DNA of 58,818 nt from positions 1 to 58,818 of the forward strand of contig CANFLS010000015.1 of the NCBI GenBank assembly GCA_947447955.1. The letters run 5' to 3'. The translations under genes and the position numbers were made by a program. Origin of the DNA: Flavobacteriales bacterium. GTDB taxonomy: Bacteria; Bacteroidota; Bacteroidia; NS11-12g; UBA955. Positions 11,349 through 53,392 of this stretch are shown piece by piece. How positions within the stretch are numbered: position 1 is the stretch's first letter; each line of letters opens with the position of its first letter. The notes under the pieces were generated by a model. It saw only the letters and a program-made list of their open reading frames with translations. It made no database searches and was not told the origin of the DNA.

Positions 11349-11356
11349 TCGTTTTA

Positions 11357-32938: not shown

Positions 32939-34216
32939 ATGTTAAATAAATTCTCTTTTGAAAATGTGCTTTCATTTAAAGAGCCTCAAACGTTTTCTAT
33001 GTTAGCATCGGCTAAAAAGGAACGTTTGTTTGACGACAGTCAAAACTATGTAGAAATTGCGAAGGATAGTAAAACGCTGTCAACGGCTGTAATGTATGGA
33101 GCAAATGCAAGTGGCAAGAGTAATTTGATTAAAGCCATGATGCATTTCAGGAATTTCATAGTTACAGGGAATCAAAACTTGGATAGTTTGGAATTCGCGG
33201 TGCCCAATTTTCAACTTGATACTGCAAAAGCAAACTCGCCCTCACAATTTGAAATAGAATGCATTTGGAAAGAGAAAAGCTATCGTTATGGATTTAGTGT
33301 TTTAAATTCTGGTATAGAGGAAGAATGGTTGTATGTGAAAGAAAAGCGTGAATCAGAGGTTTTTTATCGCCAAAAACAAGAATTTACTATCCCCTCAAAA
33401 AATAAAATTTTAAATGAATTGACTTCCAAAAAGATGGTTCATTCTAAAGCTTTTTTAGTTACCATTGGTGCGCAGTTTAACGATACTTCTTGTGCCGGTT
33501 TTTTGGAATGGATTCACCACTTTAACATAATCTCAGGTATAGATGATCGCTTGTACAAAGACTTCACTGTAAGCAGAATGAAAGAGAGTAGTGCTTTTAG
33601 TAAAAAGGTTATTGAACTGATTAAGTTTGCAGATTTCGGCATCGAAGATATTTCTATAAATTCAATTCCAGGTCAAAACATTAAATTCACTGTAGGCGCA
33701 AACTCAGGAGTAGAAGTTGAACCGGGTACAATCGATGATTTGATGTCCAAGAGGTTTGTGTTAAATTCAAAAGGAATGCCTGAATTAAAAGAGTTTCACT
33801 TTGGCCTATTTGAATCAGAGGGAACTCAAAAGTTTGCACATATTGCAGGACCAATTTTAGACGTTTTAGAAAAGGGTAGTGTTTTGGTGATTGATGAATT
33901 AGATACAAAACTTCATCCTGAACTTACAGAACGATTGGTGCTTTTATTTCACAATAAAGAAATTAATACCAACCATGCTCAATTGATTTTCACATCCCAC
34001 AATACAAATTTATTGGATGCGAAAATATTCAGAAGAGATCAAATCTTTTTTGTAGAAAAAGACTCATTTGGTTCGTCAAACTTGTATTCTTTGGCAGACT
34101 TTAAGAAAGACGGAAAATCAACTCGAAATGACGAAAATATTGAGCTTAATTATTTAAAAGGAAAATATGGAGCCTTGCCGTTTTTAGGTGATTTTGATAA
34201 TCGTTTAAATCGCTAA
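32939..34216 (+). CDS. AAA15-family ATPase, RloA/AbiLi-like
   Basis: 425 aa ABC/SMC-like ATPase of the AAA15 (OLD-related) group. The N-terminus FSFENVLSFKEPQTFSM is typical. Walker A is GANASGKS at residues 54-61, Walker B is LVIDELDTKLHPE near residue 319, and the SHN switch follows in FTSHNTNLL. No nuclease domain is fused. The RloB-like gene starts 3 nt later. RloA/RloB and the lactococcal AbiL pair share this layout and are linked with phage abortive infection. A defence role here is inferred from family and context. Confidence 0.88.
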   Translation: MLNKFSFENVLSFKEPQTFSMLASAKKERLFDDSQNYVEIAKDSKTLSTAVMYGANASGKSNLIKAMMHFRNFIVTGNQNLDSLEFAVPNFQLDTAKANSPSQFEIECIWKEKSYRYGFSVLNSGIEEEWLYVKEKRESEVFYRQKQEFTIPSKNKILNELTSKKMVHSKAFLVTIGAQFNDTSCAGFLEWIHHFNIISGIDDRLYKDFTVSRMKESSAFSKKVIELIKFADFGIEDISINSIPGQNIKFTVGANSGVEVEPGTIDDLMSKRFVLNSKGMPELKEFHFGLFESEGTQKFAHIAGPILDVLEKGSVLVIDELDTKLHPELTERLVLLFHNKEINTNHAQLIFTSHNTNLLDAKIFRRDQIFFVEKDSFGSSNLYSLADFKKDGKSTRNDENIELNYLKGKYGALPFLGDFDNRLNR

Positions 34217-34219
34217 TGG

Positions 34220-34831
34220 ATGACAGGGCATACGATTCATAAAACCCCAATGAGAGGTCGTCAGATTGTGAGCCAACACAATTTGAGAAAAACTTTTATG
34301 ATTTTTACGGAAGGACAAACTGAGGAGGGATATTTTAAAAAGTTTAAGGTTCGGTGCAAAACTATCACGGGTGGTAATGCCCTGCGAATTGTTGAAGAAG
34401 CAATCGTACAGAAGAACAATATAAAAAGGCCAATAGATGAATTCTGGGTGGTATTTGACAAGGATGCAACTTTTAAGAATGACTTTTTAAAAGCGATTAA
34501 ATTAGCCAATGATAATCAATTAAATGTTGCATTTAGCTGTGAAGCCTTTGAAATATGGTGGCTTTTTCATTTCATGGAAATATCAGCACCCATTCAAAGG
34601 AAAGAGTATGAAAAGAGAATCAAAAAGCATTTGCCGGATTATTCAATTAGAGATAAAGGTATTCAACAAGGTGAACGAATGTGGATGTTGCTTGATAAAT
34701 TTAAAGCAATTGGCATTGCAAATGCAAAAATGGCACATTTGAAATTTGTTCAACCTCAGAATGCTTTTGAGCAAAGCGTGACAACAGTATATACATTGGT
34801 GGAATCTTTAGCTACAAATATGTTCAGATAA
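34220..34831 (+). CDS. RloB/AbiLii-like protein
   Basis: 203 aa of the RloB family. TEGQTEEGYFKKF at residues 30-42 and VVFDKDATF at 77-85 give the acidic residues (E31, D80, D82) of a TOPRIM-like metal centre. SCEAFEIWWLFHF is the family's mid-protein motif. It is predicted to be a nuclease-like effector working with the ATPase encoded just upstream. No restriction-modification genes are adjacent, unlike in Campylobacter rlo loci. Confidence 0.85.
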   Translation: MTGHTIHKTPMRGRQIVSQHNLRKTFMIFTEGQTEEGYFKKFKVRCKTITGGNALRIVEEAIVQKNNIKRPIDEFWVVFDKDATFKNDFLKAIKLANDNQLNVAFSCEAFEIWWLFHFMEISAPIQRKEYEKRIKKHLPDYSIRDKGIQQGERMWMLLDKFKAIGIANAKMAHLKFVQPQNAFEQSVTTVYTLVESLATNMFR

Positions 34832-36079: not shown

Positions 36080-36772
36080 TTATAAAGCCCATTTGCCAAT
36101 AAATCCTATAGTTATTCCTTGTGATTTAGTAACGATATGCGGTATTCCGAAGGCAACCAAAAATGGTTGCATTGGATTTAAATCACTGAGGCCGCAATAA
36201 TAGGATAGCGAATTACCAAAGGTGAAATTTCCTTTTTTTAACCAAATGTAATCTATACCAGCAATGATTCCTTTGTCCAGTAATTGTTTATCTTCATTTG
36301 GATTTGCAGTTATGTTCGAATTAGAACTTGACGCGGAATTGTAGTAATTGAAGCCCAAATATCCCCCGAAATTAAGAGAAAGTGCTTTCGATTTAAAAGG
36401 CTTAATTTTGATTTGCAACGGTGTTTGAATAGTCCAATAGTTGTATTTCACATTAATATTATTAGAAATTAGATTGCCGTTATTGTCTAATGTAGTTAAA
36501 TGAGATAATTTTAATCCATAATTTATATTTCTGATGCCCAACGTTATTGAAAAAGTTGGATTCAATTCTTTTTCAACCGTAACTGCTTCATAATGTGACT
36601 GGCTAATATCGTATCTTTCAAAAAATGCATCTCCGTAATTGTGGAAATTATTGACGCCAGCCTCGAATTGTAGGCTCAACTTCTTTGTTTTTTGAGGGAC
36701 AGAAACCGCAGGCGATTGAGCAAATAAACTCAGTGCACTGAACATGAATAGGATAGTAGTGAGTTTTTTCAT
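36080..36772 (-). CDS. Exported protein, outer-membrane barrel-like, unknown
   Basis: 230 aa. Its signal peptide (TTILFMFSALSLFAQS) is the shared leader cassette described elsewhere here; identity with the gene ending at 39340 continues to KTKKLSLQ. The mature part is rich in alternating aromatic/polar strands (FSITLGIRNINYGLKLSHL, IQTPLQIKIKPFKSKALSLNFGGYLGFNYY). It ends in a strand with aromatic residue (GFIGKWAL), as in small outer membrane beta-barrels. No named family is recognised. Last gene of the minus-strand operon. Confidence 0.7.
   Translation of the reverse strand: MKKLTTILFMFSALSLFAQSPAVSVPQKTKKLSLQFEAGVNNFHNYGDAFFERYDISQSHYEAVTVEKELNPTFSITLGIRNINYGLKLSHLTTLDNNGNLISNNINVKYNYWTIQTPLQIKIKPFKSKALSLNFGGYLGFNYYNSASSSNSNITANPNEDKQLLDKGIIAGIDYIWLKKGNFTFGNSLSYYCGLSDLNPMQPFLVAFGIPHIVTKSQGITIGFIGKWAL
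36692..36772 (-). repeat. Leader cassette copy (MKKLTT... to VPQ)
   Basis: Encodes signal peptide plus SPAVSVPQ. Contains the perfect 12-bp palindrome TCAGTGCACTGA at 36730-36741. Near-identical cassettes begin the genes whose 5' ends are at 38615 and 39340. Confidence 0.8.
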
Positions 36773-36803
36773 AGTGTTTTTTTTCTTTAAATATTATCAT
36801 TTT

Positions 36804-38615
36804 TTATTCCACAACAATCAATTTCGATTGAATGTTTCCGCTTGGTTTTACAATGTAAATACCTGGAACTTGTATTCTAGTTGTGAATTGCATTTGATTT
36901 GTATCTCCTTTGATTTTTTCAATTTGTTTCCCTGTTAAATCAAATATTGAAATTTCATTCCCCGAATTTAAAGCTTGATTGAATTCTAAGTTGAGTTCTC
37001 CGCCAGCCACCACTGGATTCGGAGAGATTTTCAAGCCACCTTCCGACAATTTTGAAAAGCCAAACGTTGAGAGATTTTCTTTACAGACATTTGACACCCA
37101 GAAATTATAAGTGAACATGGATTTGTTTAATTTCAAACTCCAAACACTCTCGGTTGGATTTGCTTTCATGGAATACAAATAACAAAACATATGTCCCTCA
37201 TTGAAATTATTTGCCAAAAAATTGAAATTGGAATTTGCCAATTCAAATTCAGGCTTGAATTTCATGTTCGAATACGAATAAAGTTTGGTTGTAAACAATG
37301 ACGATTTAAACGTGTCGGCCAAAGAAACACGGGTCGAATCAAAATCAAACCATTTGTTTGTTCCTATGGTAACATACAATTTATTAGTATCGTCGGCCAT
37401 TAATTTGGCATAGGTAAACCCATTAACTGCCGATGATTCTATGGCCGAATACTTCAATCCATTAAACATAGAATCGAACGTTACAATTGCTTTACTCTCG
37501 ATCAATTTGCAATCAAGTGAATTGTTTGAATTATCTAAAATACCATTAGACGAATTGTTAATTGAAACCACATAATTATCACCACTCGTGTAAAGGATTT
37601 TACCCAAATTATTGAGATAAACAGGGCCATAACAACCAATATTAAAAGCATCAGTCAGTTTAAATCCACTAATTTTAAGCATTAAGTAATCTGTACCAGA
37701 ATATGGTGAAGGCAATCTTAGCACTGATTTATTTATTGCTATTTGTTGTTTAAATAAACTGGGCAAATCAATTGTATCGGTATATTGAATGATGGAAATT
37801 ATTTGTCCATTATTCTCTTCAATTTTGAAATTTAGAATTTCATTATTGGAATGTCCCAACAAATTAAAATTAATTACATTAAACGAAGTGTCTAATTTCA
37901 ATAAATACAAAGAATACGGATGATTATTTGGCATTTTCACAGCTGAATTAAGGGTGATTTCACTATTTATACTGGCGGTGAGAAAAACACCCTGTTTAGA
38001 ACGCAGAAATTCTATGTTTTTAGGATTCAACATAACTCCGTTGGCTGTTTTACCAATCTCATAATATTGAATTCCACTAAAATCATTGCTAATTTTAACC
38101 AATACAATTCTGGAATAGGATTTTGCAGCAATTGTTACTTTGCCCGACAATTGATAGGTGGCATTTGAGTAAACCACCAATGGAAAATAAACATTCCCGG
38201 CATCGTCGGTAGAGATTTTTACACTTTGCATCGGAATGGGAATATTCACTTGAATTTGTTGTTTTAATTGTCCCTCAGAATTAAATTTCACAAGAAAACA
38301 ACTATTTCTATTTGCTGTAATTGTTGAATTTAACTTAACTGAGTTGAACGCGCAAGAATCTTCCGACCAATAGGCCACTATGTAATCCCCATTTTTGAAT
38401 TTTATGGGATCAGAAACATTTGAATATGCGTATTTGGTGCTCAAGCTATTTGCATACGAAGTACACTGGGCATTTAGCAACGTTGAAATGCAACTTAAGA
38501 GCATTGCCAATGAAAGGGATTTGATTTTTTTCATTTGAGGGACAGAAACCGCAGGCGATTGAGCAAATAATCTCAGTGCATGGGAGATGAAAAGGAGAGT
38601 AGTGAGCTTTTTCAT
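36804..38615 (-). CDS. T9SS cargo protein with two stacked signal peptides
   Basis: 603 aa. The C-terminal 80 residues are a type A T9SS sorting domain (LKISPNPVVAGGELNLEF, IFDLTGKQIEKI, PGIYIVK). The middle is beta-rich with many 'L..D....V' strands, like SBBP/propeller-type surface proteins. The N-terminus is odd. A 27-residue leader cassette (ends AVSVPQ) is followed directly by a complete second signal peptide (MKKIKSLSLAMLLSCISTLLNAQ). The native start is probably ATG at 38534; the upstream cassette is joined in frame. Which start is used is unknown. Confidence 0.82.
   Translation of the reverse strand: MKKLTTLLFISHALRLFAQSPAVSVPQMKKIKSLSLAMLLSCISTLLNAQCTSYANSLSTKYAYSNVSDPIKFKNGDYIVAYWSEDSCAFNSVKLNSTITANRNSCFLVKFNSEGQLKQQIQVNIPIPMQSVKISTDDAGNVYFPLVVYSNATYQLSGKVTIAAKSYSRIVLVKISNDFSGIQYYEIGKTANGVMLNPKNIEFLRSKQGVFLTASINSEITLNSAVKMPNNHPYSLYLLKLDTSFNVINFNLLGHSNNEILNFKIEENNGQIISIIQYTDTIDLPSLFKQQIAINKSVLRLPSPYSGTDYLMLKISGFKLTDAFNIGCYGPVYLNNLGKILYTSGDNYVVSINNSSNGILDNSNNSLDCKLIESKAIVTFDSMFNGLKYSAIESSAVNGFTYAKLMADDTNKLYVTIGTNKWFDFDSTRVSLADTFKSSLFTTKLYSYSNMKFKPEFELANSNFNFLANNFNEGHMFCYLYSMKANPTESVWSLKLNKSMFTYNFWVSNVCKENLSTFGFSKLSEGGLKISPNPVVAGGELNLEFNQALNSGNEISIFDLTGKQIEKIKGDTNQMQFTTRIQVPGIYIVKPSGNIQSKLIVVE
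38535..38615 (-). repeat. Leader cassette copy fused ahead of a native signal peptide
   Basis: 81 nt, in frame, ending CCCTCAA immediately before the native ATG. Diverged relative to other copies (palindrome degraded to TCAGTGCATGGG). Confidence 0.8.
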
Positions 38616-38632
38616 AGTATTTATAATCTGGG

Positions 38633-39340
38633 TTAATTCCTAAGTTTTATTTGATATCCAATATTCAGAGATAAGGTAATTGCATCTCGATTTACGCGAT
38701 AGTTTTTATAAAATTCCTCAAATCCACCTCGTGGCTTTCCTAACAGGTTATTTTTTTCAAAATAATGAGTAAATCTTACATCCGTAGAAATGTAAAAATT
38801 GCGTAAAAAGCTGTATTTTAATGATCCGCCTAAACCGACACCCAAGCTGTTGTATTGGAACGTACTTACAATTGGCTCATTCCAACTAAATCGTGTATCG
38901 GCCACAATAACTTCTTCAATTCCTGATGATTTGTAATTTATATTAAATGTTGGGCTAATTGAGAATTTCTTGTATGAAATACTTTTGCCTATTTCTGCCA
39001 TAATAACATGATAAAATCTACTGACCACATCGCCTTGAATTCTATTCGCATAAGAATTAGATTTTTCATAGTAATTATAGTTTAGACCTATGAAATATTT
39101 TGATCCATTCAAAATTTTTAAACCAAATGTATACGGCGGCGTATATTGCGTGAACGGCTTATATAATCCGGGTGTAAAATTGTTGTTTTGAGAATAGTTA
39201 TTTAAAAAAATAGTTATTGGCATGCCGGCTTCAATTTGTAGGCTCAACTTCTTTGTTTTTTGAGGGACAGAATCCGCAGGCGATTGAGCAAATAAACTCA
39301 GTGCGCTGAAGAGGAATAATATGGTTGCGAACTTTTTCAT
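38633..39340 (-). CDS. Exported protein, outer-membrane barrel-like, unknown
   Basis: 235 aa. The signal peptide is the leader cassette (ATILFLFSALSLFAQS) and the first mature residues DSVPQKTKKLSLQIEAG are shared with the 36080-36772 product. Repeating amphipathic strands (LGVGLGGSLKYSFLRNFYIS, AITLSLNIGYQIKL) and a terminal aromatic/polar strand fit a small outer membrane beta-barrel. Beyond the leader, similarity to its paralogue is weak. It lies inside the minus-strand operon, 17 nt upstream of the T9SS cargo gene's ATG. Confidence 0.7.
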   Translation of the reverse strand: MKKFATILFLFSALSLFAQSPADSVPQKTKKLSLQIEAGMPITIFLNNYSQNNNFTPGLYKPFTQYTPPYTFGLKILNGSKYFIGLNYNYYEKSNSYANRIQGDVVSRFYHVIMAEIGKSISYKKFSISPTFNINYKSSGIEEVIVADTRFSWNEPIVSTFQYNSLGVGLGGSLKYSFLRNFYISTDVRFTHYFEKNNLLGKPRGGFEEFYKNYRVNRDAITLSLNIGYQIKLRN

Positions 39341-39380
39341 AAAGGTTTTATTTGGTAAAACGATAAAAAGATAATTGTAT

Positions 39381-39728
39381 TTAATTGGATAAAAATACAG
39401 AATTGTTAATTGTTAGTTTTTCAATGTGTTTACTGCCTTTGTTAAATGGATCTAGGACATTCCATCCTTCTTTGCAATATATGGTTGCAGTTTTTCCTAT
39501 GAGCGATTTCAATTCAGCGGTTTTAATTGTTTCAAAGCCTCTATTGATGTAAAAAGTACTTTTCTCGTTTCGTATTTTAAGGACAGCATCTTTAATGCCT
39601 CCTTCTTCAATCGATAATACTTCTCCTGTATAACTATTTATATTTTCCGAATTTGCGCTTTGTCTTGCTGCAATAATTAAGAATAGACTCAAGACAGCTA
39701 TTGTTGTTGTAAATAGTATTTTTTTCAT
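39381..39728 (-). CDS. Small exported hypothetical protein
   Basis: 115 aa. The hydrophobic N-terminus (FTTTIAVLSLFLIIAA) is a signal peptide or anchor without lipobox Cys. The mature part is a small beta domain (YTGEVLSIEEGGIKDAVLKI, KSLIGKTATIYCKEGW) with OB-like look, not assignable to a family. Its upstream spacer (39740-39780) is about 85 % identical to the spacer before the orphan leader at 43755-43795. Confidence 0.6.
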   Translation of the reverse strand: MKKILFTTTIAVLSLFLIIAARQSANSENINSYTGEVLSIEEGGIKDAVLKIRNEKSTFYINRGFETIKTAELKSLIGKTATIYCKEGWNVLDPFNKGSKHIEKLTINNSVFLSN

Positions 39729-39739
39729 GATCAGTTTTT

Positions 39740-39780
39740 TGTGTTATAACGATTGTGAAATATAAATATTGTTTTCATTT
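39740..39780. repeat. 41-nt spacer repeat, copy 1
   Basis: About 35 of 41 positions match 43755-43795 by hand alignment. Both copies lie just upstream of a minus-strand signal-peptide start. Confidence 0.6.
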
Positions 39781-40683
39781 TATTTTTATTCCATTAAACT
39801 TATCTGAACCTTTAATTTCAGGTTTCATTAAATTAAACCAACTCATTTGAATTTGTATTGATTTTCTATCTTTACCCATTAACGCGAGGCCCCTAACTCT
39901 AATTTGTTCATTTAGAGAATTTGAATTAACAAGTGTTTGATTTCCTGCAATTACACAACCAAATGGTGTGTGACCAAAAGTGCTATTTACCGAATATTCA
40001 CAATTGTCAAATTTGCCATATCCTTGAGGTATATTAATTAGATAACCATTACTAAGAATATTAGGGTCCACTGATGGACAGTATAAATTGCTATCATAAA
40101 ACCCTATAATGACTTCCAAATTGGGTTTACTTGTGTAATGCCCTTTATAAATCCCTTTAATTGGAGTAGGTTTATTGAATATATCTTTTTTCAAGTTTAC
40201 ATCATAGTAACTTTCTGAAGGCCACGTGAATATTTTATGTATAGATGTATCTCTACCATTATCTGCCGGAAAACAATTTTTGTTTGTATGCTTGTTTACT
40301 GCTATTAAAGTGATTTTATCATGCCTATTCTCAGGAAAACTGTTGAGAATTACTGATTTAGTATAATACTTCGATGCTCCAATTTCCCAAATAAATGAAT
40401 CCGCATCATTTAATGCCCTAAACCTAATTTTTGAATCCATTCTGTTGCCAGAAAATGTATCTGACTCTATCCAAATTTCATCCCCCTCCCAATCACATAG
40501 GTACTCTTCGATAACAAAATTAGCAGAAGTTTGCATTTTTCCTGAACAAGGATCATAATTCTCGCAGGCTGGGTTGCTTATGTCGTGGCATTTTTCCTTA
40601 CAACAGCCTTGGGCGATTATAAGAATCAAACTGCATAAACTCAGTGCACTGAATATGAATAGGATAGTAGCGAACTTTTTCAT
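39775..40683 (-). CDS. Cys-rich lipoprotein family, paralogue A
   Basis: 302 aa, first described here as part of a five-member family. Its leader is chimeric: MKKFATILFIFSALSL matches the barrel-gene cassette, then CSLILIIAQGCCKEKC matches the lipoprotein leaders. A lipobox (IIAQGC) predicts lipidation. The family motif C-K-E-K-C-x-D-x-x-N-P-x-C-E-N-Y-D-P-C follows. A PKD-like beta domain (SFIWEIGASKYYTKS) and a C-terminal domain ending FNGIKIK complete it. No known function. Its ATG overlaps the stop of paralogue B by 4 nt (translational coupling). Confidence 0.72.
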   Translation of the reverse strand: MKKFATILFIFSALSLCSLILIIAQGCCKEKCHDISNPACENYDPCSGKMQTSANFVIEEYLCDWEGDEIWIESDTFSGNRMDSKIRFRALNDADSFIWEIGASKYYTKSVILNSFPENRHDKITLIAVNKHTNKNCFPADNGRDTSIHKIFTWPSESYYDVNLKKDIFNKPTPIKGIYKGHYTSKPNLEVIIGFYDSNLYCPSVDPNILSNGYLINIPQGYGKFDNCEYSVNSTFGHTPFGCVIAGNQTLVNSNSLNEQIRVRGLALMGKDRKSIQIQMSWFNLMKPEIKGSDKFNGIKIK

Positions 40684-41570
40684 TGTAATTTCCTTCCTTT
40701 AAATTTGTATTTCCTATATGGAATATTTTTAATTGGATAACCACACCAGTATTCAGCTGACAGGGTGTTGTGGTTTAATTTGATATTTCCTCTTGACGGA
40801 GTATTGTATTTCGCAACGTCTCCAAATTGAATGTTGTGGCCGGTATATGTGCAAAAAAGTTCTATTTGTGTAAAAGTATCCATCATGTTTCTGAAATTCA
40901 CCAATGCAATTTCACCAGTACTTTGTGTTGTTGCAAAATTAAAATTCTTTTCGGTATGCAAACCTTCTTCAAAAGCCCAGGGTCTAATTTCTACTATTGA
41001 ACTATCCTTTTCACCTTCAAAAAGCACTTTATAAACGCCCATAATTGGCAGCTCAGTATTGGGCACAAAAGTAAATGTCTTTTCCAATGTATCTTTTCCA
41101 TCATCTAATGGAAAACACCTTAAATCAGGTTCTTTTTCTACCATTAGGGTCACCTTATATTTTCCCATAATTCCTTTATTTGAGGAAAAAGACCGCGCGT
41201 AAAAAGAATCCGTAATGGTCTCTGAACCCAGCTTCCAAGTAGTTTTCACACCAGGAGTCATACATTTAAATCCAATAAATTGACTATGCCGCGCCGAATA
41301 TAAAGGCCATTTATCATCTACAGGCGCACAGAAAACAGAATCTTCGTTGATGAACTTTTCGTCACCATTTACGGGCATAAATGTATTCATTAGTCCTAAT
41401 TTTATCGATGCTTTTACTGGGATTTTGCCATAGCACGGATCATAATTTTCACAGGCTGGGTTGTTATAATCATGGCATTTTTCCTTGTCGCAGCTTTGAA
41501 CGATTATCATAATCAAACTGCACAAACTCAGTGCACTGAATAGGAATAATATGGGTGCGAACTTTTTCAT
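40680..41570 (-). CDS. Cys-rich lipoprotein family, paralogue B
   Basis: 296 aa. Chimeric leader as in A (MKKFAPILFLFSALSL then CSLIMIIVQSCDKEKC), lipobox VQSC. Family motif CHDYNNPACENYDPCYGK. The middle contains the PKD-like segment TTWKLGSETITDSFYARS, and DDGKDTLEKTF matches the DGRDT turn of the other paralogues. The C-terminus ends FKGRKLQ, a variant of the family FNGxK end. Body diverged from A, C and D (low identity outside motifs). Unknown function, cell-surface or periplasmic lipoprotein by signal. Confidence 0.72.
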   Translation of the reverse strand: MKKFAPILFLFSALSLCSLIMIIVQSCDKEKCHDYNNPACENYDPCYGKIPVKASIKLGLMNTFMPVNGDEKFINEDSVFCAPVDDKWPLYSARHSQFIGFKCMTPGVKTTWKLGSETITDSFYARSFSSNKGIMGKYKVTLMVEKEPDLRCFPLDDGKDTLEKTFTFVPNTELPIMGVYKVLFEGEKDSSIVEIRPWAFEEGLHTEKNFNFATTQSTGEIALVNFRNMMDTFTQIELFCTYTGHNIQFGDVAKYNTPSRGNIKLNHNTLSAEYWCGYPIKNIPYRKYKFKGRKLQ

Positions 41571-41596
41571 AGATATTTTCCTTCTTTTGGGTTTTA

Positions 41597-42433
41597 TTAT
41601 TTTATTCTATAACCATTAAAAGTATTTGGATTTTTATAAATTGGATCCGGATTGGGTCCAAGATATAAGCCCAAATGATCGGATGAAGGAATTTCCGCAT
41701 GAATACTATCTAAAGTCTTGTTTAAAAGAAAAGTCATTCCCTCTCGCGATGTTGCAAAACGATTAGTATATTTATTTAATGAAAAATCCCACGGGCCAAT
41801 ATCCTTTGAATGATATCCATTTGGTAAATTATAATAAGCTGCAAACAATCCGTCTGGTTTACTATTTATGAATGTTACATTAAATGTATCATACGGTTTG
41901 GCCGTTAAAGACCCACGGAATACTCCGTTATATGAATCGCAAATACCTTTTCGGTATGCACGTATTATATAATGCTTTACCACCGTATCCCTACCATCAT
42001 CTCCAGCTTTGCATCTCGGATTGGGTTTGCGGCAAGTAATACACATAATGGTTATTGGCCCTTCTGTTCCTGGTACGTCTTCATCAAAAAAAACTGTGAC
42101 AGAATCTCCTCTGCGGTATTTTTTTTCGGCACCTATTTTCCACAGAACACTGTCATTTCCAACCTGCCAGCATTTAAAGATTTTATCACCAGTTCCTATT
42201 GTATCGTCTTCCGGCACCTTGTAATAGGTATGTAAATGGGTTTTGGCATCGATATAATCCATTACGATATCAAAATCTGCATTGCTCAATGGATTGGCCC
42301 TGCATGGGTCGTAATTTTCACATTCAGGATTAAAAGGGTCATTGCATTTTTCCTTGCAACAGCCTTGGGCGATTATAAGAATCAAACTGCATAAACTAAA
42401 GCTGAGTAGGCTGACTTGAAATTGGTTTTTCAT
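41597..42433 (-). CDS. Cys-rich lipoprotein family, paralogue C
   Basis: 278 aa. Leader MKNQFQVSLLSFSL then CSLILIIAQGCCKEKC. Family Cys motif then ADFDIVMDYIDAK. PKD-like domain with VLWKIGAEKKYRRGDSV and an extra Cys set CITCRKPNPRCKAGDDGRD. The C-terminal domain ends FNGYRIK. The body is about 88 % identical (hand count, 245 of 278) to the product of 52324-53160 on the other strand, so one arose by duplication. It lies between D and B in the minus-strand operon, with no promoter seen. Confidence 0.75.
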   Translation of the reverse strand: MKNQFQVSLLSFSLCSLILIIAQGCCKEKCNDPFNPECENYDPCRANPLSNADFDIVMDYIDAKTHLHTYYKVPEDDTIGTGDKIFKCWQVGNDSVLWKIGAEKKYRRGDSVTVFFDEDVPGTEGPITIMCITCRKPNPRCKAGDDGRDTVVKHYIIRAYRKGICDSYNGVFRGSLTAKPYDTFNVTFINSKPDGLFAAYYNLPNGYHSKDIGPWDFSLNKYTNRFATSREGMTFLLNKTLDSIHAEIPSSDHLGLYLGPNPDPIYKNPNTFNGYRIK

Positions 42434-42518
42434 ATTTGTTTGGCTTTTATTTCATTTTTAAAATTATGAATATTATGGACATAAAATCCAACAGAATAGT
42501 TTGTTGTTTAAAGGTCAT

Positions 42519-43442
42519 TTATTTTAATTTCACCCCATTAAAAACAAAGGTGGTTTCTTTTCCATTTTGTTGCGTTTGATATCTGTATTCTAACCTTACT
42601 TTATGTTTTCCATTGGCAGATGGTTGCGCATATGCGTGGAAATAAGTGATGCCAGATGACATCATCATCACCTGATTATCAGCAATTCGCGTGAGTTCAT
42701 CCATTTTCCATTTTCTTTGTTTATAACTCTCGAAATTTGGAAAACATTTTTCTAAAATTCTTTGTGACTCAATTCTTAAAGTATCGGCCTGTGGGAAACC
42801 AAATAAATTGATTCCTTCAACATCATAGGGTATACTTATGTAAGATTTTTCTTTTGGAATTGTCCAAGTGTAACATTTTGTATAGTCCCATGTTAAAACT
42901 CGTTTTTTATTGGGCTCATTTTCAAAGTATCCCTCAAAAGTACCATTCCATAAAAACTCATCCGCAAAAACCAAGGTTCGTTCGGATATATAAACGCTGT
43001 CTGCTGGATTGCGAGGTGTTTTGGGTATTTTTACCACTTTCAATTTAACAGGAATTGGATTCCAAATATTTGTTGAATCTTTTAGATAATCATCAAATCT
43101 TAATGCAACTTCCCTTGTTCTGAAAATGCGGTTATCATTTCCGATTGTCCATTCATAGCGTAGTGCATTTTCCTCTTTGGCAGTAAAAAGCACACCAGAA
43201 TTACATGCTACAATGGTGTCGCAAAATTCTGCAATTTCCTCTTCTTTATCCTGCCATCCAAATGGTTTCATTGATTGCCTCATTGTAAATACAGCTGAAG
43301 GCTTACCGTAATTGGGATCATAATTCTCACACTCTGGATTGTTTATATCATTGCATTTTTCCTTGCAACAGCCTTGGGCGATTAAAAGAATCAAACTGCA
43401 CAAACTAAAGCTGAGTAGGCTGATTTGAAATTGTTTTTTCAT
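42519..43442 (-). CDS. Cys-rich lipoprotein family, paralogue D (first gene of the operon)
   Basis: 307 aa. Leader MKKQFQISLLSFSL then CSLILLIAQGCCKEKC; family motif CNDINNPECENYDP. PKD-like part RYEWTIGNDNRIFRTRE; C-terminus ends FNGVKLK. It heads the minus-strand operon behind a TACATTTG promoter. Its promoter and first 43 codons form one arm of a 231-nt inverted repeat with the gene at 52324. Function unknown; predicted lipoprotein. Confidence 0.75.
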   Translation of the reverse strand: MKKQFQISLLSFSLCSLILLIAQGCCKEKCNDINNPECENYDPNYGKPSAVFTMRQSMKPFGWQDKEEEIAEFCDTIVACNSGVLFTAKEENALRYEWTIGNDNRIFRTREVALRFDDYLKDSTNIWNPIPVKLKVVKIPKTPRNPADSVYISERTLVFADEFLWNGTFEGYFENEPNKKRVLTWDYTKCYTWTIPKEKSYISIPYDVEGINLFGFPQADTLRIESQRILEKCFPNFESYKQRKWKMDELTRIADNQVMMMSSGITYFHAYAQPSANGKHKVRLEYRYQTQQNGKETTFVFNGVKLK

Positions 43443-43473
43443 ATAATTAATGAATTGTTCTTGAATATAAAAT

Positions 43474-43481
43474 CAAATGTA
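43474..43481 (-). promoter_or_regulatory. -7 promoter element (TACATTTG) of the lipoprotein operon
   Basis: Exact TAnnTTTG on the minus strand, 31 nt before the ATG of paralogue D. The 19-nt palindromic motif (43504-43522) lies just upstream, overlapping the expected -33 region. Confidence 0.55.
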
Positions 43482-43503
43482 AAACTTTATAAATACGATG
43501 TCG

Positions 43504-43522
43504 TGATAGATTTATATCATGT
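43504..43522. promoter_or_regulatory. Palindromic 19-nt motif, copy 2
   Basis: TGATAGATTTATATCATGT, one base different from 32818-32836. Its position by the -33 region of the lipoprotein promoter suits a regulator site. Confidence 0.45.
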
Positions 43523-43560
43523 GGTTGTCCTTATTTTGAGGTTTCATATTATTAAAATAC

Positions 43561-43703
43561 ATTCATTTAGACAAAGTTAGTGGATTTCAATTCAATTTTG
43601 TATGGTTGTGTGTGTACTAAAAAAACATGAAAACAATACTGAATTTTTAGTATGGCTATTTTTTAACTGTGTGAAAAACAAAAAATATATACACAGATTA
43701 ATT
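43561..43703. repeat. 143-nt interspersed repeat, copy 1
   Basis: Matches 49427-49568 at roughly 80 %, with a core of about 38 identical nt. The core carries inverted arms TACTAAAAA and TTTTTAGTA, so it can fold into a hairpin. Only two copies are seen in the window. Confidence 0.75.
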
Positions 43704-43750
43704 AAACTCAGTGCACTGAACAGAAATAGGATAGTAGCGAACTTTTTCAT
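43592..43750 (-). pseudogene. Orphan leader cassette without its protein body
   Basis: ATG at 43750 starts MKKFATILFLFSALSL, the shared cassette with the intact palindrome TCAGTGCACTGA (43708-43719). The frame then runs into the antisense of the 143-nt repeat and stops after 52 codons. No mature domain follows, so this looks like a leader left behind by recombination. Confidence 0.7.
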
Positions 43751-44787: not shown

Positions 44788-45423
44788 ATGCGAAATTTAA
44801 TTTACGTATATTACATTGTTCTTTTTTTGGCTAGTTTGTTGGCAATAAAAAATTTCAACAAACTCAATAAATCCCTCAAAATATTTGGCTTGCTGGTTGT
44901 ATTGACCTTTGTTTTTGAGCTATGCGCTTTTTATATGGCCAAAACAAGACATAATAATATTATCGTTTATGTGGTATTTACACCAATAGAGTTAATCCTA
45001 ATCAATTTTGCTTATTACACGCATCAAAAAGATTCTTTGTTTAGAAAAACAAGCATTGCTTTGACGCTCCTTTTTATAGTCTATTTCATAACTCAAATAG
45101 GCGGTTTGAATTTGTCTGTGTTCCCTGATAAATTGATAATGATAGAAAATATAATCCTTTGTATCATTGTTGCCTATTCAAGCTATTTGATTGTCAGCAA
45201 GCAACATTACATTGAAATGAAGAAAAATAAAATGATTTGGATCAATATGGGATTTTTGTTTTTTCTATCAACTTCATTTTTTATTTGGGGATTTCATCAT
45301 TTGATTAAAACAAACGAGATTAATCTAATTTTAAGATTCACATTAATTATCTCGAACATCATATTATATTCAACCATGGCATTGGTTTTTTTAAAAGTCA
45401 ACTTAAAAAGTGAAATCATTTAA
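44788..45423 (+). CDS. Multi-pass membrane protein of signalling unit 1
   Basis: 211 aa, about six hydrophobic helices with short loops; no soluble domain. Its gene overlaps the kinase gene by 14 nt, so the two are translationally coupled. The same layout (multi-pass protein, kinase, regulator) recurs at 49686-51710. Sequence similarity between the two membrane proteins is weak but length and topology agree. A sensing role for the neighbouring kinase is inferred from that conserved pairing. Confidence 0.7.
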   Translation: MRNLIYVYYIVLFLASLLAIKNFNKLNKSLKIFGLLVVLTFVFELCAFYMAKTRHNNIIVYVVFTPIELILINFAYYTHQKDSLFRKTSIALTLLFIVYFITQIGGLNLSVFPDKLIMIENIILCIIVAYSSYLIVSKQHYIEMKKNKMIWINMGFLFFLSTSFFIWGFHHLIKTNEINLILRFTLIISNIILYSTMALVFLKVNLKSEII

Positions 45424-46210
45424 TATAAATATTGATAATCAACTTATTGCGATATTTGTTGCAGGAATAATCATTCTGGTGGTTATTGTGAATATTTTAA
45501 TCTTTTGGTTTGTTTTATCTTATAAAAAAAGAGAGTTTGATTTGAAAATCAACAGCGAAAAGATCAACGCAAATTTTGAATTACAGTTGTTGAATTTAAA
45601 GAATGAAACAAGAAATACCGAAATGAAATATTTCGCTAGGGAATTGCATGATAATTTGGGTCAAATTACTTCACAGTTAAAAAGGTTTTTAGATTTTAAT
45701 ATTGAACAAAATAAAATAATTGATTCGAACTCCGGTAGTGAACTCATTGATAAACTAAAAATTGAGATTAGAAGACTTGCTTCACGATACAATCATTTCG
45801 TATTTGATGAGTTTAATTTAATTGATTCGATTTCAAATGATATACTCAGGATTTCAAAATTTTCGAATATGATGATTGATTTACATTTACCTGATGACGA
45901 AGTAATTTTAGAAAACCATATAAAAGCTGAGGTATTTCGCATTTATCAAGAACTAATCAATAATACTATGAATCATTCTAAAGCCAAAAACGTGAAGATT
46001 TTGATACATTCAAATCAATTGACTTCATTGGAAATGATCATTGAAGATGATGGAATCGGATTTGATCCCTCCCAAATGAAAAAAGGGTCGGGGCTTTATA
46101 ATGTAAGAGAAAGAGCGAATCAAATAGGAGGGTGTATCAATTTTACATCACATTCAGGAGTAGGGACATTGACAACTTTAACAATTAATAATTCTGTAAA
46201 TGCATCATAA
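45410..46210 (+). CDS. Sensor histidine kinase (HisKA_3 type), signalling unit 1
   Basis: 266 aa. One membrane helix at residues 12-37, then a coiled linker. Dimerisation/phospho-acceptor motif ARELHDNLGQ with H80. The HATPase domain has the N box (YQELINNTMNHSKAKNV), the G1 box (EDDGIGFDP) and the G2 box (GSGLYNVRERANQIGG). It lacks any sizeable extracytoplasmic sensor, so the signal probably enters through the separate membrane protein encoded upstream. The response regulator gene overlaps it by 11 nt. Confidence 0.9.
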   Translation: MKSFNINIDNQLIAIFVAGIIILVVIVNILIFWFVLSYKKREFDLKINSEKINANFELQLLNLKNETRNTEMKYFARELHDNLGQITSQLKRFLDFNIEQNKIIDSNSGSELIDKLKIEIRRLASRYNHFVFDEFNLIDSISNDILRISKFSNMMIDLHLPDDEVILENHIKAEVFRIYQELINNTMNHSKAKNVKILIHSNQLTSLEMIIEDDGIGFDPSQMKKGSGLYNVRERANQIGGCINFTSHSGVGTLTTLTINNSVNAS

Positions 46211-46880
46211 TCAAGAATTAAAATTAGCCATTATTGAAGATCATGTTGTGGTTAGGCAAGGTGTTGTAGAGGCATTGACAAGAACCAATGAAAAACTAAC
46301 TTTCATGATTGAAGCCGATAATGGTTTGGATTTTATTACCCAAGTAGATAATCGCGAAATTGCGATTGATATTGTATTGGTAGATCTCGAAATGAATAAA
46401 ATGGATGGTTTTGAAACAATTACCTGGTTAAAATCGCATTTCCCCGAAACAAGAATTATTGTCTTCACTCAAGTTACAGAAGAGCTGCGAATCAGGGAGG
46501 CTTTGAAGCTTGGTATTGATGGTTTTTTCGACAAATTCGGTAATGTTGCAGATTTGAATTCGGCTATTAACACAGTTGCCATGGGTGGCTCTTATTTTCC
46601 TGGCTACATTAAAGAAATTCAACACAAATTAATGAATGGCGTGAACATTGAAAAGTTAGAAGCCATGTCAACAGGTGTGTTTTTTACAGAAGAAGAGATT
46701 AATTTAATAAAACTTTGCTATCACGGTTATTACAATAAAGAAATTTCCAAAATGTTGAATTTAAGTGATAAATCCATTGAGTTTTACTTGAATAAATTGT
46801 ACAAAAAAATGAATGTTACGAATCGCATTGAAATGATTCGATATGCTTTAACGAACGAATTGATTCATGTGAAAAGTTAA
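46200..46880 (+). CDS. NarL/LuxR-type response regulator, signalling unit 1
   Basis: 226 aa. Receiver domain with acidic pocket (IIEDH), phospho-acceptor D62 in LVDLEM and the Lys switch in GFFDKF. C-terminal LuxR-type helix-turn-helix (EEEINLIKLCYHGYYNKEISKMLNLSDKSIEFYLNKLYKKM). It is the expected partner of the kinase it overlaps. Targets are unknown; the TTAGGGAAATCC sites upstream of the unit are candidates for autoregulation. Confidence 0.9.
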   Translation: MHHNQELKLAIIEDHVVVRQGVVEALTRTNEKLTFMIEADNGLDFITQVDNREIAIDIVLVDLEMNKMDGFETITWLKSHFPETRIIVFTQVTEELRIREALKLGIDGFFDKFGNVADLNSAINTVAMGGSYFPGYIKEIQHKLMNGVNIEKLEAMSTGVFFTEEEINLIKLCYHGYYNKEISKMLNLSDKSIEFYLNKLYKKMNVTNRIEMIRYALTNELIHVKS

Positions 46881-47717: not shown

Positions 47718-48818
47718 ATGAAAAAACTACTTTATTTAACGATTTTAATATTAAACTCGAATCTACACGCGCAAACTTTTGGATTAAAAGTATTAAGTAT
47801 TAGCGATTCATCGTTGATTACAAAAGATTTACGCCTTTTTGATTCCATGTGGCATTGTTGTTTAAGTAATTATGGGAAGAAGGATGTATCAAATTTGTTC
47901 GCCGACAGCGCTCCAACTGTTTCAAAAACAAATCCGATTACTTTATTAAATTTCATAACTGGTATAGATGTTCCATTGTCCGATGTATTTGGGTTTAAGT
48001 TGGTTGGTAGTCAAATTTTGAATGATTCGATTTTGTTATATCATTTAGATATGGGTTGGTTGCAGTTGGCAATTCCTTTTAATCGAATTAAAAAGAAACT
48101 GATGCGCTTTGAATCAATCAATTTTTTCGATTTAAATAAATTTAGATATAAGAATTTAACAGTGTATTCGATGGATCCAGTAAAACAAAAGGATCTTGAT
48201 GGTGCATTTAAAAAAATAGTTCAAACTGCGAAAGAATTAGACATAAACATTGATTCTTTTATAAAGCGAGAAATTGTAATTTATTCTGGAAGAACTATTA
48301 AAGAATCATATTCTTATGTTGGAGGACTTGAATATGTAAACTACTTTAATAAAGGTTCAATTTATGGAGGGATGGGTGATCCTTTCAATAATATAATTCT
48401 GTCTGGAATTCCAAAACCAATTCATATTCACGAGCTTTTGCATTTTTTGATTACATTTCCTTGTAATCAATTTATTGGTGAAGGATTAGCAAGTTATTAC
48501 GGTGGAATTGGCGCGACTTCTTATACAAACAATCTTCAAAAAGTATTAAAGATTATAAAGAAGAAAGATATTCATTCCTTTACAGATTTAAATATTTTAT
48601 GGAGGACTGACAACTATTTCAATTCTGTTCGTGGTAGTTATATTTTGTCAGCATTCATGTTGAGCAAGATTAAGAAGGAATTCAATCTTAAAACTTATCG
48701 CAATTTTGTATGGCACTGTCAAACGGACAGTGATATGATTATTAATTTGAAAGACCTTTATCAAGTGGATTCTGAAAAAGTACTTTTTGATAAATTATTT
48801 TGGGGAAAAATGCAATGA
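47718..48818 (+). CDS. Exported predicted zinc metallopeptidase (gluzincin-like), novel
   Basis: 366 aa with signal peptide (LTILILNSNLHAQ). Near the C-terminus HELLH at residues 238-242 is an HExxH zinc motif. E255 in GEGLASYYGG fits the third ligand of gluzincins such as the peptidase-MA group. The N-terminal 200 residues match nothing I know. Probably a periplasmic or surface peptidase; substrate unknown. No lipobox and no T9SS tail visible. Confidence 0.62.
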   Translation: MKKLLYLTILILNSNLHAQTFGLKVLSISDSSLITKDLRLFDSMWHCCLSNYGKKDVSNLFADSAPTVSKTNPITLLNFITGIDVPLSDVFGFKLVGSQILNDSILLYHLDMGWLQLAIPFNRIKKKLMRFESINFFDLNKFRYKNLTVYSMDPVKQKDLDGAFKKIVQTAKELDINIDSFIKREIVIYSGRTIKESYSYVGGLEYVNYFNKGSIYGGMGDPFNNIILSGIPKPIHIHELLHFLITFPCNQFIGEGLASYYGGIGATSYTNNLQKVLKIIKKKDIHSFTDLNILWRTDNYFNSVRGSYILSAFMLSKIKKEFNLKTYRNFVWHCQTDSDMIINLKDLYQVDSEKVLFDKLFWGKMQ

Positions 48819-48887: not shown

Positions 48888-49421
48888 ATGAGACCTACAC
48901 ATATAATATTCATTCTACTTTCTTTGACCATGTTGCTTTCCTCATTCAGTGAGCGTCCAGTTTTTCGCTATGATGATATTTCCCTAAAAAACGATACTTT
49001 AAAGTGGTATTCATTTAATGAAGGACATTCAAAAGCGGTTAGGGAGAATAAAATTCTTATGGTCAACGTAAGCACGGAATCGTGTTATGGTTGTAAATTG
49101 ATGTTTAAACATACTTATACCCACCGTGGGGTCATCGATACCCTCAATAAGTACTTCATATGTGTTTATTTCAATCCACAAATCGACAGCAGTTATTTAC
49201 TCAATAGCAAAAAAGTAACACCTAAGGAACTGATAAAATATTTATTTGTTGATGAGCAGGTGGCATACCCAACTAGCTTGTTTTGGTTTCACCCAGAGTC
49301 CGAAGAAAAGCACTCCGTTCACAGTGGATTTAAGGAACCGCCCATCTTTTTAAAGTTGTTGTCCGCCGCACAGGCTATGCGTCCTTTTGGTTTTCTGGGA
49401 ATCAATTTAAAGATAGATTAA
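48888..49421 (+). CDS. Exported thioredoxin-like protein
   Basis: 177 aa. Signal segment FILLSLTMLLSSFS. The fold entry ENKILMVNVSTESCYGCKLM carries a C66-Y-G-C69 active-site motif. The order (KAVRENKILMVNVS, CxxC, later cis-Pro region QVAYPTSLFWFHP) follows DUF255/thioredoxin-7-type proteins. A role in periplasmic thiol-disulfide exchange is likely by motif. It may serve the Cys-rich lipoproteins nearby, which is inference. Confidence 0.72.
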   Translation: MRPTHIIFILLSLTMLLSSFSERPVFRYDDISLKNDTLKWYSFNEGHSKAVRENKILMVNVSTESCYGCKLMFKHTYTHRGVIDTLNKYFICVYFNPQIDSSYLLNSKKVTPKELIKYLFVDEQVAYPTSLFWFHPESEEKHSVHSGFKEPPIFLKLLSAAQAMRPFGFLGINLKID

Positions 49422-49426
49422 AATTA

Positions 49427-49568
49427 ATTCATTTAAACAAAGGCACTCAATTTCAATTCAATCTTATATGGTTCTGTACATACTAAAAAAACATGAAAAC
49501 AATACTGAATTTTTAGTATGACTATTTTGTAACAGTAAGAAAAACAAAAATATATGCAAAGATTAATT
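49427..49568. repeat. 142-nt interspersed repeat, copy 2
   Basis: Partner of 43561-43703, same orientation. It lies between the thioredoxin-like gene and signalling unit 2. Confidence 0.75.
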
Positions 49569-49589
49569 GAATATGAAAAAATGAAAATA

Positions 49590-49685: not shown

Positions 49686-50312
49686 ATGCCCAAATATGCT
49701 TATTTGATACCCTTCCTGAATTTAATTCCCTTTTTCGCGGGATTCAATATTTTATTCAATTTTAAGGATGTAAAAGTAAAATTATTTAGTGCGTATTTGA
49801 TACTAACGGCGATCTGCGGATTAATTTGCTTTTATTTAGCAATGACAAATGGAAACAACCACTGGTGTTATAATATATATCAAATTATTGTATTCATTTT
49901 ACTTGCTTTAATATTTGATATTGAGTTTCAAAAAAAGGTATTTTTCAAAATTTCTGTTCTTGTTTCAATCTTTTTGATTTACAATACATATGCCACCGGG
50001 TTATTTATATTTAATCAAATAAATTTCAATATTATTTTTACCTGTATTGGCACTGTAAGCGGAGTTTGTATCAAAAATATAGTTGTTAATTCATTTGAAA
50101 AAGAATTCAATGAGTCTGATTTTTGGATGTATGGTGGTTTTTTTATTTTTAGCTTTGGAAATCTCTTCCTAGATCTATTTTTCACTATTGTAACCCATAA
50201 AACCAATTACTCAATATTGCATTTTTATGCAATTTATCAGATTGTTTTAAACGTAATTGTAAACTTAATATTTTTTAAAGTAGTCCTTTTGTTGAAGAAA
50301 AATGAGTATTGA
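49686..50312 (+). CDS. Multi-pass membrane protein of signalling unit 2
   Basis: 208 aa, about six hydrophobic helices, no soluble domain. Counterpart of the 44788-45423 product in size, topology and position. Similarity is mostly in the pattern of helices, with a shared early CxFYLAMT/CAFYMAKT element. Its gene overlaps the kinase gene by 11 nt. Presumed signal-sensing partner of that kinase. Confidence 0.7.
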   Translation: MPKYAYLIPFLNLIPFFAGFNILFNFKDVKVKLFSAYLILTAICGLICFYLAMTNGNNHWCYNIYQIIVFILLALIFDIEFQKKVFFKISVLVSIFLIYNTYATGLFIFNQINFNIIFTCIGTVSGVCIKNIVVNSFEKEFNESDFWMYGGFFIFSFGNLFLDLFFTIVTHKTNYSILHFYAIYQIVLNVIVNLIFFKVVLLLKKNEY

Positions 50313-51030: not shown

Positions 51031-51032
51031 TC

Positions 51033-51710: not shown

Positions 51711-51734
51711 AATAAAACAAAAAACCAAACAAAT

Positions 51735-52221: not shown

Positions 52222-52452
52222 AAACCTCAAAAGAAGAACGACCACATGATATAAATCTATCACGACATCGTATTTATAAAGTTTTACATTTGATTTAATA
52301 TTCAAGAGCAAGGTATCAAGTATATGAAAAAACAATTTCAAATCAGCCTATTCAGCATTAGTTTGTGCAGTTTGATTCTTATAATCGCCCAAGGCTGTTG
52401 CAAGGAAAAATGCAATGATTACAAAAACCCTGAATGTGAAAATTACGACCCA
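52222..52452 (+). repeat. Inverted repeat, right arm (promoter plus leader)
   Basis: Reverse complement of 43314-43544 without net indel. It includes the -7 box TACATTTG and the 19-nt palindrome (52244-52262). Confidence 0.85.
52285..52292 (+). promoter_or_regulatory. -7 promoter element (TACATTTG) of lipoprotein paralogue E
   Basis: Exact TAnnTTTG match, 31 nt before the ATG at 52324; same spacing as in the inverted copy before paralogue D. Confidence 0.55.
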
Positions 52453-53160
52453 TGTAGGGCCAATCCATTGAGTAATGCAGATTTTGATATCGTAATGGAT
52501 TATATCGATGCCAAAACCCATTTGAATACATATTACAAAGTGCCCGAAGACGATACAATAGGGACTGGCACATATACCTTTAAATGCTGGCAGGGTGGAA
52601 ACGACAGTGTTCTTTGGAAAATAGGTACCGAAAAAAAATACCGCAGAGGTGATTCTGTCAGAGTTTCTTTTGATGAGGACGTCCCAGGAACAGAAGGGCC
52701 AATAACCATTATGTGTATTACTTGCCGCAAACCCAATCCGAGATGCAAAGCTGGCGATGATGGTAGGGATACTGTGGTCAAGCACTATATTATAGATGCA
52801 TACCGAAAAGGTGATTACGATTCGTATAACGGAGTATTCAGAGGGTGTTTAACTGCCAAACCGCTTGATACATTTAATGTAACGATTATAAATAGTAGAC
52901 CAGACGGTATATTGGCAGCGTATTATAATTTGCCAAATGGGTATCATACAAGGGATATTGACCTGTGGGATATGAGACTTTATAAATATACTAATCGTTT
53001 TGCAACATCAGTAGAGGGAATAACTTTTCTTTTGAACAAGACTTTAGATAGCATTCATGCGGAAATTCCTTCATTAGACCATTTGGGTTTATATCTTGGA
53101 CCTAATCCGGATCCAATTTATAAAAATCCAACTACTTTTAATGGTTATAGAATAAAATAA
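52324..53160 (+). CDS. Cys-rich lipoprotein family, paralogue E (mosaic of D and C)
   Basis: 278 aa. Leader MKKQFQISLFSISL plus CSLILIIAQGCCKEKC and the promoter copy those of paralogue D (inverted repeat). From CRANPLSNADFDIVMDYID onward the body is that of paralogue C, about 88 % identical over the full length by hand count. The family Cys motif, lipobox and FNGYRIK end are intact. It therefore appears to be a recombinant of two genes on the other strand. The following hydrolase fragment begins just after its stop. Confidence 0.78.
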   Translation: MKKQFQISLFSISLCSLILIIAQGCCKEKCNDYKNPECENYDPCRANPLSNADFDIVMDYIDAKTHLNTYYKVPEDDTIGTGTYTFKCWQGGNDSVLWKIGTEKKYRRGDSVRVSFDEDVPGTEGPITIMCITCRKPNPRCKAGDDGRDTVVKHYIIDAYRKGDYDSYNGVFRGCLTAKPLDTFNVTIINSRPDGILAAYYNLPNGYHTRDIDLWDMRLYKYTNRFATSVEGITFLLNKTLDSIHAEIPSLDHLGLYLGPNPDPIYKNPTTFNGYRIK

Positions 53161-53341
53161 TTGAATATGAAAAATATATTGCTTCTGGGTATTTCCATCT
53201 TCCTGCTTAATGTTTGTGAAGCATTTAAGCCCCAAAAAGAATATGTGAATATTCCATCGGACTTTGGAATCAATTTCAAAGAAGTTAAACTAAAAACGCC
53301 AGATGAATACGCTTTGAACTCTTGGGTTTATGAACCGCAAA
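53136..53341 (+). repeat. 206-nt direct repeat, left copy
   Basis: Matches 55259-55464 with constant offset 2123 and 9 mismatches by hand count. It spans the last 25 nt of paralogue E and the first part of the hydrolase gene. Confidence 0.9.
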
Positions 53342-53370
53342 ACCAATTTTTTGGATACGTCGAGATTTGA
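53167..53370 (+). pseudogene. Truncated 5' copy of the alpha/beta-hydrolase gene
   Basis: From ATG 53167 (MKNILLLGISIFLL...) the frame follows the intact gene at 55290 up to NSWVYEPQ, then leaves homology at the repeat end (53341) and stops at 53370. It keeps the signal peptide but none of the catalytic triad. Confidence 0.85.
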
Positions 53371-53392
53371 ATCAAAGTTTCAAGAAAACTAT

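Follow-up and report, generated by a model that had tools for sequence, protein, structure and literature searches.

The window studied here, 58,818 nucleotides (nt) long, is the whole of contig C15 (GenBank CANFLS010000015.1) of a Flavobacteriales genome assembly (GCA_947447955.1; 2.8 Mb in 70 contigs). Between 36 and 56 kb it carries an array of genes for exported proteins in which copies of one short signal-peptide-encoding sequence, called the leader below, recur at gene starts; a paralogous array is present on contig C26. Gene starts are repeated in the same orientation in these arrays, some of the genes are mosaics, and the spread of the leader is specific to this lineage. It is most probable that both arrays are shaped by duplication combined with ectopic homologous recombination, or gene conversion, among similar 5' ends. 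The leader would have its source in an outer-membrane barrel gene, where it is the ordinary start of the signal peptide, and its DNA would have been copied onto neighbours in this lineage.

A preliminary description of the window had placed variants of the leader at six minus-strand 5' ends (36772, 38615, 39340, 40683, 41570 and 43750), and all six were found there. Its account of the downstream sequences was also borne out: the leader continues into FAQSPA(V/D)SVPQ at 36772, 38615 and 39340, and switches to CSLIxII at 40683 and 41570. At 43750, it runs into sequence without a long open reading frame (ORF). Using the 82-nt leader as query, eight clear copies were obtained in the whole genome (E 4e-10 to 8.5e-32), namely the six of the window and two on C26, at 17296 (barrel gene bar3) and 19519 (lipoprotein gene lipA2). 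The sensitivity of this search is limited, since it overlooked a ninth, diverged copy on C26 (L018:5794-5845, 5' end 5845), found by direct comparison of the two contigs. The ninth copy encodes a mini-ORF of 24 codons. The TGA of this mini-ORF overlaps the start codon (ATG) of the gene that follows, which is lipoprotein-like and has a hydrophobic start of its own. The leader is met in several contexts: barrel genes, which are its native partners, lipoprotein genes, a type IX secretion system (T9SS) cargo gene with its own signal peptide, and non-coding sequence. Within each contig, all copies have the same direction.

The copies of the window and the genes behind them, all on the minus strand, are as follows. 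The native pairing is represented by bar1 (36080..36772), an outer-membrane beta-barrel gene of 230 amino acids (aa; PF13568, OMP_b-brl_2) with an 82-nt leader at 36691..36772. A second barrel gene, bar2 (38633..39340, 235 aa, leader at 39259..39340), shares its 5' end with bar1, its body having diverged. The T9SS cargo gene (36804..38615; Por_Secre_tail, PF18962) has an extra leader of 27 codons, the copy at 38534..38615 standing in frame before the gene's own ATG and signal peptide. In the hybrid-leader lipoprotein genes lipB (39775..40683) and lipA (40680..41570), leader nt 1-49 (40635..40683) and nt 1-47 (41524..41570), respectively, are fused to a CSL lipoprotein body. Two further lipoprotein genes, lipC (41597..42433) and lipD (42519..43442), have the native lipoprotein leader, and an orphan leader of 48 nt (43703..43750) is joined to an intergenic segment. 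The genes had been described as unrelated. Barrel, lipoprotein and T9SS bodies, of independent origin, do stand behind one leader, but some of the genes are related: bar1 and bar3 are paralogues, and the genes starting at 40683, 41570, 42433, 43442 and 52324 form one lipoprotein family.

Such likeness of gene starts was not seen in a control stretch of the genome. Candidate exported genes were defined as ORFs of at least 90 codons with K/R near the start and a hydrophobic stretch. In 400 kb of the same genome taken as control, 343 ORFs gave 104 candidates, and none of their 5,356 pairs shares at least 36 of the first 48 nt (maximum 33). In C15 and C26, which were selected because they hold leader copies (41 candidates), this level is reached by 22 of 820 pairs, the orphan leader at 43750 being outside the count. 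For 10 of these 22 pairs, only 18-31 of the next 102 positions agree, which is near chance.

A codon-by-codon comparison was made of nine paralogue pairs, the leader being taken as the first 28 codons. Leader identity is 95-96% in bar1/bar3, lipB/lipA2, lipD/lipE and lipC/lipD, with the same codon at 23/23, 24/26, 24/24 and 23/24 of the conserved residues, respectively (lipE lies on the plus strand, at 52324..53160). In the last three of these pairs, most later alignment windows drop to 29-60% and the bodies hardly align; the corresponding values are 63-89% for bar1/bar3. In lipC/lipE, the leader is 94% identical (22/23 same codons) and the later windows 82-96%. Altogether, a 5' end far more alike than the body, synonymous sites included, is clear in four of the nine pairs (bar1/bar3, lipB/lipA2, lipD/lipE and lipC/lipD) and weaker or not seen in the rest.

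Plain tandem duplication together with strong selection on the signal peptide might also leave leaders alike and bodies diverging. Tandem paralogues are indeed present, and the lipoprotein arrays of two related genomes, G050 and G024, keep a conserved N-terminus over diverged bodies: most N-terminal codons are shared among the G050 lipoproteins, of whose three pairs two have diverged bodies, whereas only 10/19 of the conserved N-terminal residues of the G024 pair share a codon, which fits selection. On the other hand, codons are conserved in five of the nine pairs of the present arrays, mosaics occur, and the leader is found on a T9SS gene and on lipoprotein genes whose relatives, where read, lack it. 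Moreover, the leader diverges normally between species. Compared with the barrel gene of relative G009, bar1 is 73% identical in the leader and 75-85% in later windows, and bar3 70% and 63-90%. Thus, the leader diverges like the body between species and is under no unusual constraint, so that constraint does not account for its likeness within the genome. For the barrel, this comparison between species contradicts pure selection on the leader, although the G024 lipoprotein pair does suit it. Duplication with selection is, in sum, quite unlikely to account for the arrays.

Related genomes point to the starting state. The barrel family was found in 6 of the 70 genomes of the family that were searched, our own included. 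In all five relatives, the barrel gene begins with the leader, which was found once, that is, as one recognisable copy at E<=0.1. It reads MKKFVTILFIFSALDLFGQ in G009 and MKKFASILFLFxTLNLFGQ in G064, G067, G068 and G069. Seven relatives of the T9SS gene were found; the five starts read have no leader, and in two of these five the alignment begins at residue 2 of the inner start. Of 15 lipoprotein relatives, the eight N-termini read (three from G050, two from G024 and one each from G064, G003 and G021) likewise show no leader, the one from G064, MKKQIHLGIFSLALLSLILTIGSC, being similar to native lipC, lipD and lipE. No such leader was seen on the thioredoxin-like gene of G009 and G069. The leader being on the barrel in relatives and not on the T9SS, lipoprotein and thioredoxin-like genes read, the barrel pairing appears to be old; most simply, barrel plus leader would be the old state and the other pairings would have arisen in this lineage. 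Simple gene duplication, the alternative named in the preliminary description, is insufficient as a full explanation, as the lipoprotein and T9SS pairings are missing from the relatives read.

Mosaic genes also speak for exchange. Counting sites at which the possible parents differ, the region upstream of lipA2 is bar2-like rather than lipA-like by 59 to 3 from -129 to -10 and by 5 to 0 from -9 to 20; lipA2 is then lipB-like rather than lipA-like by 18 to 1 in nt 21-110, and lipA-like by 63 to 13 after nt 110. Similarly, lipE is lipD-like by 50 to 2 from -99 to 50, undecided from 51 to 110 (3 to 2), and lipC-like by 105 to 12 after nt 110, a lipD-like start being followed by a lipC-like remainder. 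Both genes are mosaics from recombination between array members. The gene that follows g115 (39381..39728, minus strand) is bar2 on C15 and lipA2 on C26, with 84-96% identity per 25-nt window across the 250 nt upstream of these two genes; the two g115 copies are 89-96% identical throughout. In addition, 8 of 45 pairs of leader sites fail the four-gamete test.

Chimeras produced by mis-assembly of the metagenome at short repeats could mimic such mosaics, and an assembly in 70 contigs that contains short repeats gives some ground for this concern. It is nonetheless very unlikely to be the cause: the copies are distinguished by many differences, no reading frame is interrupted at the coding junctions, and separate mosaics occur on two contigs. 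Repeats of this size are also shorter than common read lengths, which would again count against mis-assembly.

Junctions between the leader and its partners lie at several points. The CSL hybrids join within AGTTTAT (nt 43-49), a sequence common to both native leaders. The orphan departs from the leader at nt 48 for the intergenic segment at and beyond its end (43551..43706), which is 85% identical to 49417-49571. The T9SS join is at nt 81, immediately before the gene's own ATG, and the thioredoxin-like gene, which is carried by C26, retains only about the first 11-17 nt. Other stretches are also repeated: the sequence just upstream of lipC (42434-42490) is similar to a stretch (51671-51735) that covers the 3' end of a LuxR-type regulator gene and the sequence behind it, and a 206-base pair (bp) direct repeat (53136..53341, plus strand; 95.6% identical to 55259-55464) comprises the 3' end of lipE and the start of an abhydrolase gene. 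These joins and repeats at several points argue that exchange and duplication act on gene starts across the region. The two copies of the 206-bp repeat flank an exported CHU_C gene (ORF 53330-55249), as though insertion of this gene had duplicated the start of the abhydrolase gene.

Could the leader be a small mobile element, similar to a miniature inverted-repeat transposable element, that inserts at gene starts? The variety of unrelated contexts, the orphan and the C26 mini-ORF among them, would suit this idea. However, the right end of the copies is not fixed (about 11-17, 48 or 81 nt), recognisable copies are confined to two arrays, and the leader is part of the barrel coding sequence in relatives. 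Terminal inverted repeats or target duplications are not apparent in the alignments of the copies, no dedicated search having been made. Such an element is therefore highly improbable.

The consequences of exchange for protein export can be judged from the residues that move. The 48 nt exchanged encode MKKFATILFxFSALSL, that is, the n-region and part of the h-region of the signal peptide. Native lipC, lipD and lipE have IAQGC, which is retained in the hybrids lipB and lipA2; lipA keeps IVQSC, and the barrels keep SLFAQ. We take IAQGC and IVQSC to be lipoboxes and LFAQ to be a signal peptidase I site. In the T9SS gene, the leader precedes the gene's own signal peptide and has polar changes (SHALRL) in its hydrophobic part. 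Judged by these motifs, no protein changes export class, and the exchange does not appear to alter targeting. The re-targeting of proteins between secretion and lipidation proposed in the preliminary description is thus not supported: the cleavage signals stay with the bodies, and the T9SS leader was only added before an existing signal peptide.

The same description had drawn attention to a palindrome, TCAGTGCACTGA, just before the switch. As it stated, the palindrome is perfect in four of the six window copies (for instance at 36730-36741 in bar1 and 43708-43719 in the orphan, and also in lipB and lipA); it is one base off at 39340 and broken in the T9SS copy. None of 100 shuffles of the window reached five matches with at most one mismatch. 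Genome-wide, the perfect palindrome occurs at five places, every one in this leader, and allowing one mismatch adds two places, the 39340 leader and one on contig C18. It could accordingly be imagined that site-specific recombination at the palindrome exchanges leaders at a fixed point and re-targets proteins, in the manner of a shufflon (the receptor shufflons of Bacteroides are of the SusC type). In favour of this, the perfect palindrome is confined to these leaders, and two partners join within nt 43-49, just past it. Nevertheless, the palindrome is broken in three of the eight clear copies (perfect in five) and absent from the barrel leaders of all five relatives. The exchange point is not fixed, joins being found at about nt 11-20, 43-49, 81 and 50-110. 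The copies within a contig are all in direct orientation, and the cleavage signals remain with the bodies. Six PF00589 matches were found in the genome, all on contigs other than C15 and C26; serine recombinases were not searched. Finally, the bar1 leader region folds as single-stranded DNA no better than shuffles (z -0.19). This mechanism has, consequently, very little probability, and a role of the palindrome as recombination site was rejected on account of the broken copies, its absence in relatives and the unremarkable fold. A search for inverted repeats gave 80 pairs for the stretch of the window and 28 for that of C26; among the 25 listed for each, those containing the palindrome (I2 and I17) link two leaders through it, and the remainder appear AT-rich and weak.

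The interpretation given in the preliminary description holds in part. That gene starts recombined repeatedly is supported by the mosaics, by the one leader per relative genome and by the unlike pairings of upstream region and body on C15 and C26. Several points nevertheless weigh against duplication with ectopic exchange. The leaders are less alike in bar1/bar2 (87%), bar3/bar2 (85%), lipA/lipA2 (82%) and lipA/lipB (81%), and the leader of lipA/lipA2 barely exceeds the body in identity. Failures of the four-gamete test may also reflect parallel changes. Two partners, the CSL body and the intergenic segment, meet the leader at nt 43-49, a coincidence not predicted by plain ectopic recombination; it is notable, but two joins are too few to show a hotspot. 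It should also be noted that diverged copies of the leader can escape searches in the relatives, that the sequence evidence comes from one genome of the species, and that some assembly error is possible in a genome of 70 contigs.

If duplication and ectopic exchange are at work, the copied leader DNA would have joined lipoprotein bodies at the 7-nt in-frame match AGTTTAT, at least one such microhomology join making the first lipoprotein hybrid. Elsewhere, the copied DNA would have been left before the T9SS gene, as a mini-ORF over the start of the lipoprotein-like gene on C26, as the orphan, or as a short remnant before the thioredoxin-like gene. The leader repeats, being direct, would then anchor further unequal exchange. 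The enzymes involved might act by RecA-type crossover, by conversion, or by repair that uses taken-up DNA. If there is a benefit, it would come from gene bodies being newly combined with positions in the array. A more dynamic version can be considered, in which leaders actively recombine as direct repeats within a surface-protein operon placed beside a histidine kinase and a LuxR-type regulator, unequal exchange keeps re-pairing, losing and gaining genes within the population, and nt 43-49, beside the palindrome, is a preferred crossover point; we regard it as unlikely.

From lipC to bar1, the distances between minus-strand genes range from a 4-nt overlap to 46 nt, and lipD and lipC are 85 nt apart. 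Because of these short gaps, the array looks operonic, and the closely spaced genes from lipC to bar1 may share one promoter. The sequence just upstream differs among most of the leader copies compared. At a cut-off of E<=0.01, no Pfam match was obtained for lipA, lipB, lipD, bar2, g115 and the 231-aa gene at 43805. The families represented in the array are old neighbours. In G069 (L125, G069:C23), one contig carries the barrel gene, a 376-aa gene like that at 47718-48818 of the window, the thioredoxin-like gene and the T9SS gene; in G064 (L065, G064:C137), the T9SS gene, a gene like the 231-aa one and the lipoprotein gene stand together.

Histidine-kinase and LuxR-type regulator genes, identified with Pfam, adjoin the arrays at 45410-46880 and 50302-51710, each pair behind a short membrane-protein-like ORF without Pfam match. 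Three sets composed of such an ORF, a histidine kinase and a response regulator can be delineated (window 44788-46880 and 49686-51710; L018:11449-13382), that of C26 being identified by likeness only. The 16-mer TGATATAAATCTATCA is found upstream of lipD, lipE, bar3 and a 401-aa gene of C26, inside longer similar stretches (window 43504-43519 and 52247-52262; L018:7346-7361 and within 11309-11364). It could be a binding site of the neighbouring LuxR-type regulators. Near the array, at 32939-34831, lies a pair formed by an AAA_21 ATPase gene and an RloB-like gene (PF13304, PF13707), possibly a defence pair.

The nearest described case that we met is the erp family of Borrelia burgdorferi (ospE/ospF/elp, with its upstream homology box), which the present arrays resemble. 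According to the part of the source available, the erp genes descend from one sequence for promoter, leader and localization and from many diverse bodies, and they recombine frequently; they encode lipoproteins on cp32 prophages and have a conserved promoter, leader and first mature residues (PMC10016077). Here, in contrast, lipoprotein genes and a T9SS gene received part of a barrel leader by copying, with several breakpoints, no upstream region is common to all copies, and the exchange crosses export classes. Other Bacteroidota surface genes are also diversified by recombination. In Porphyromonas gingivalis, as far as the accessible part of the source goes, alleles and adhesin domains vary between strains (PMC5266723), whereas here 5' ends are exchanged among genes of one genome. 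In the shufflons and invertible S-layer promoters of Bacteroides, surface-protein genes are likewise changed by recombination, the S-layer promoter inverting between repeats in the portion of the article available (PMC12548429); in our case, the repeats are direct, the contig has no PF00589 match and no inversion was seen. A Schistosoma japonicum gene family has a similar signal sequence within the family, judging from the available section of its description (PMC3434034), but this is a eukaryote and the comparison covers the signal sequence alone. Among the literature matches listed from an open library for the terms used, no title names a leader spread between barrel, lipoprotein and T9SS genes.

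The arrays thus offer a clear case of a signal-peptide start spreading across barrel, lipoprotein and T9SS cargo genes inside one Bacteroidota-type genome, with readable breakpoints and with outgroups that show the likely starting state. In this genome, a prediction of export class from the first 15 residues would mislead. More generally, the case suggests that the short, similar and co-oriented starts of exported genes can serve as anchors for recombination.

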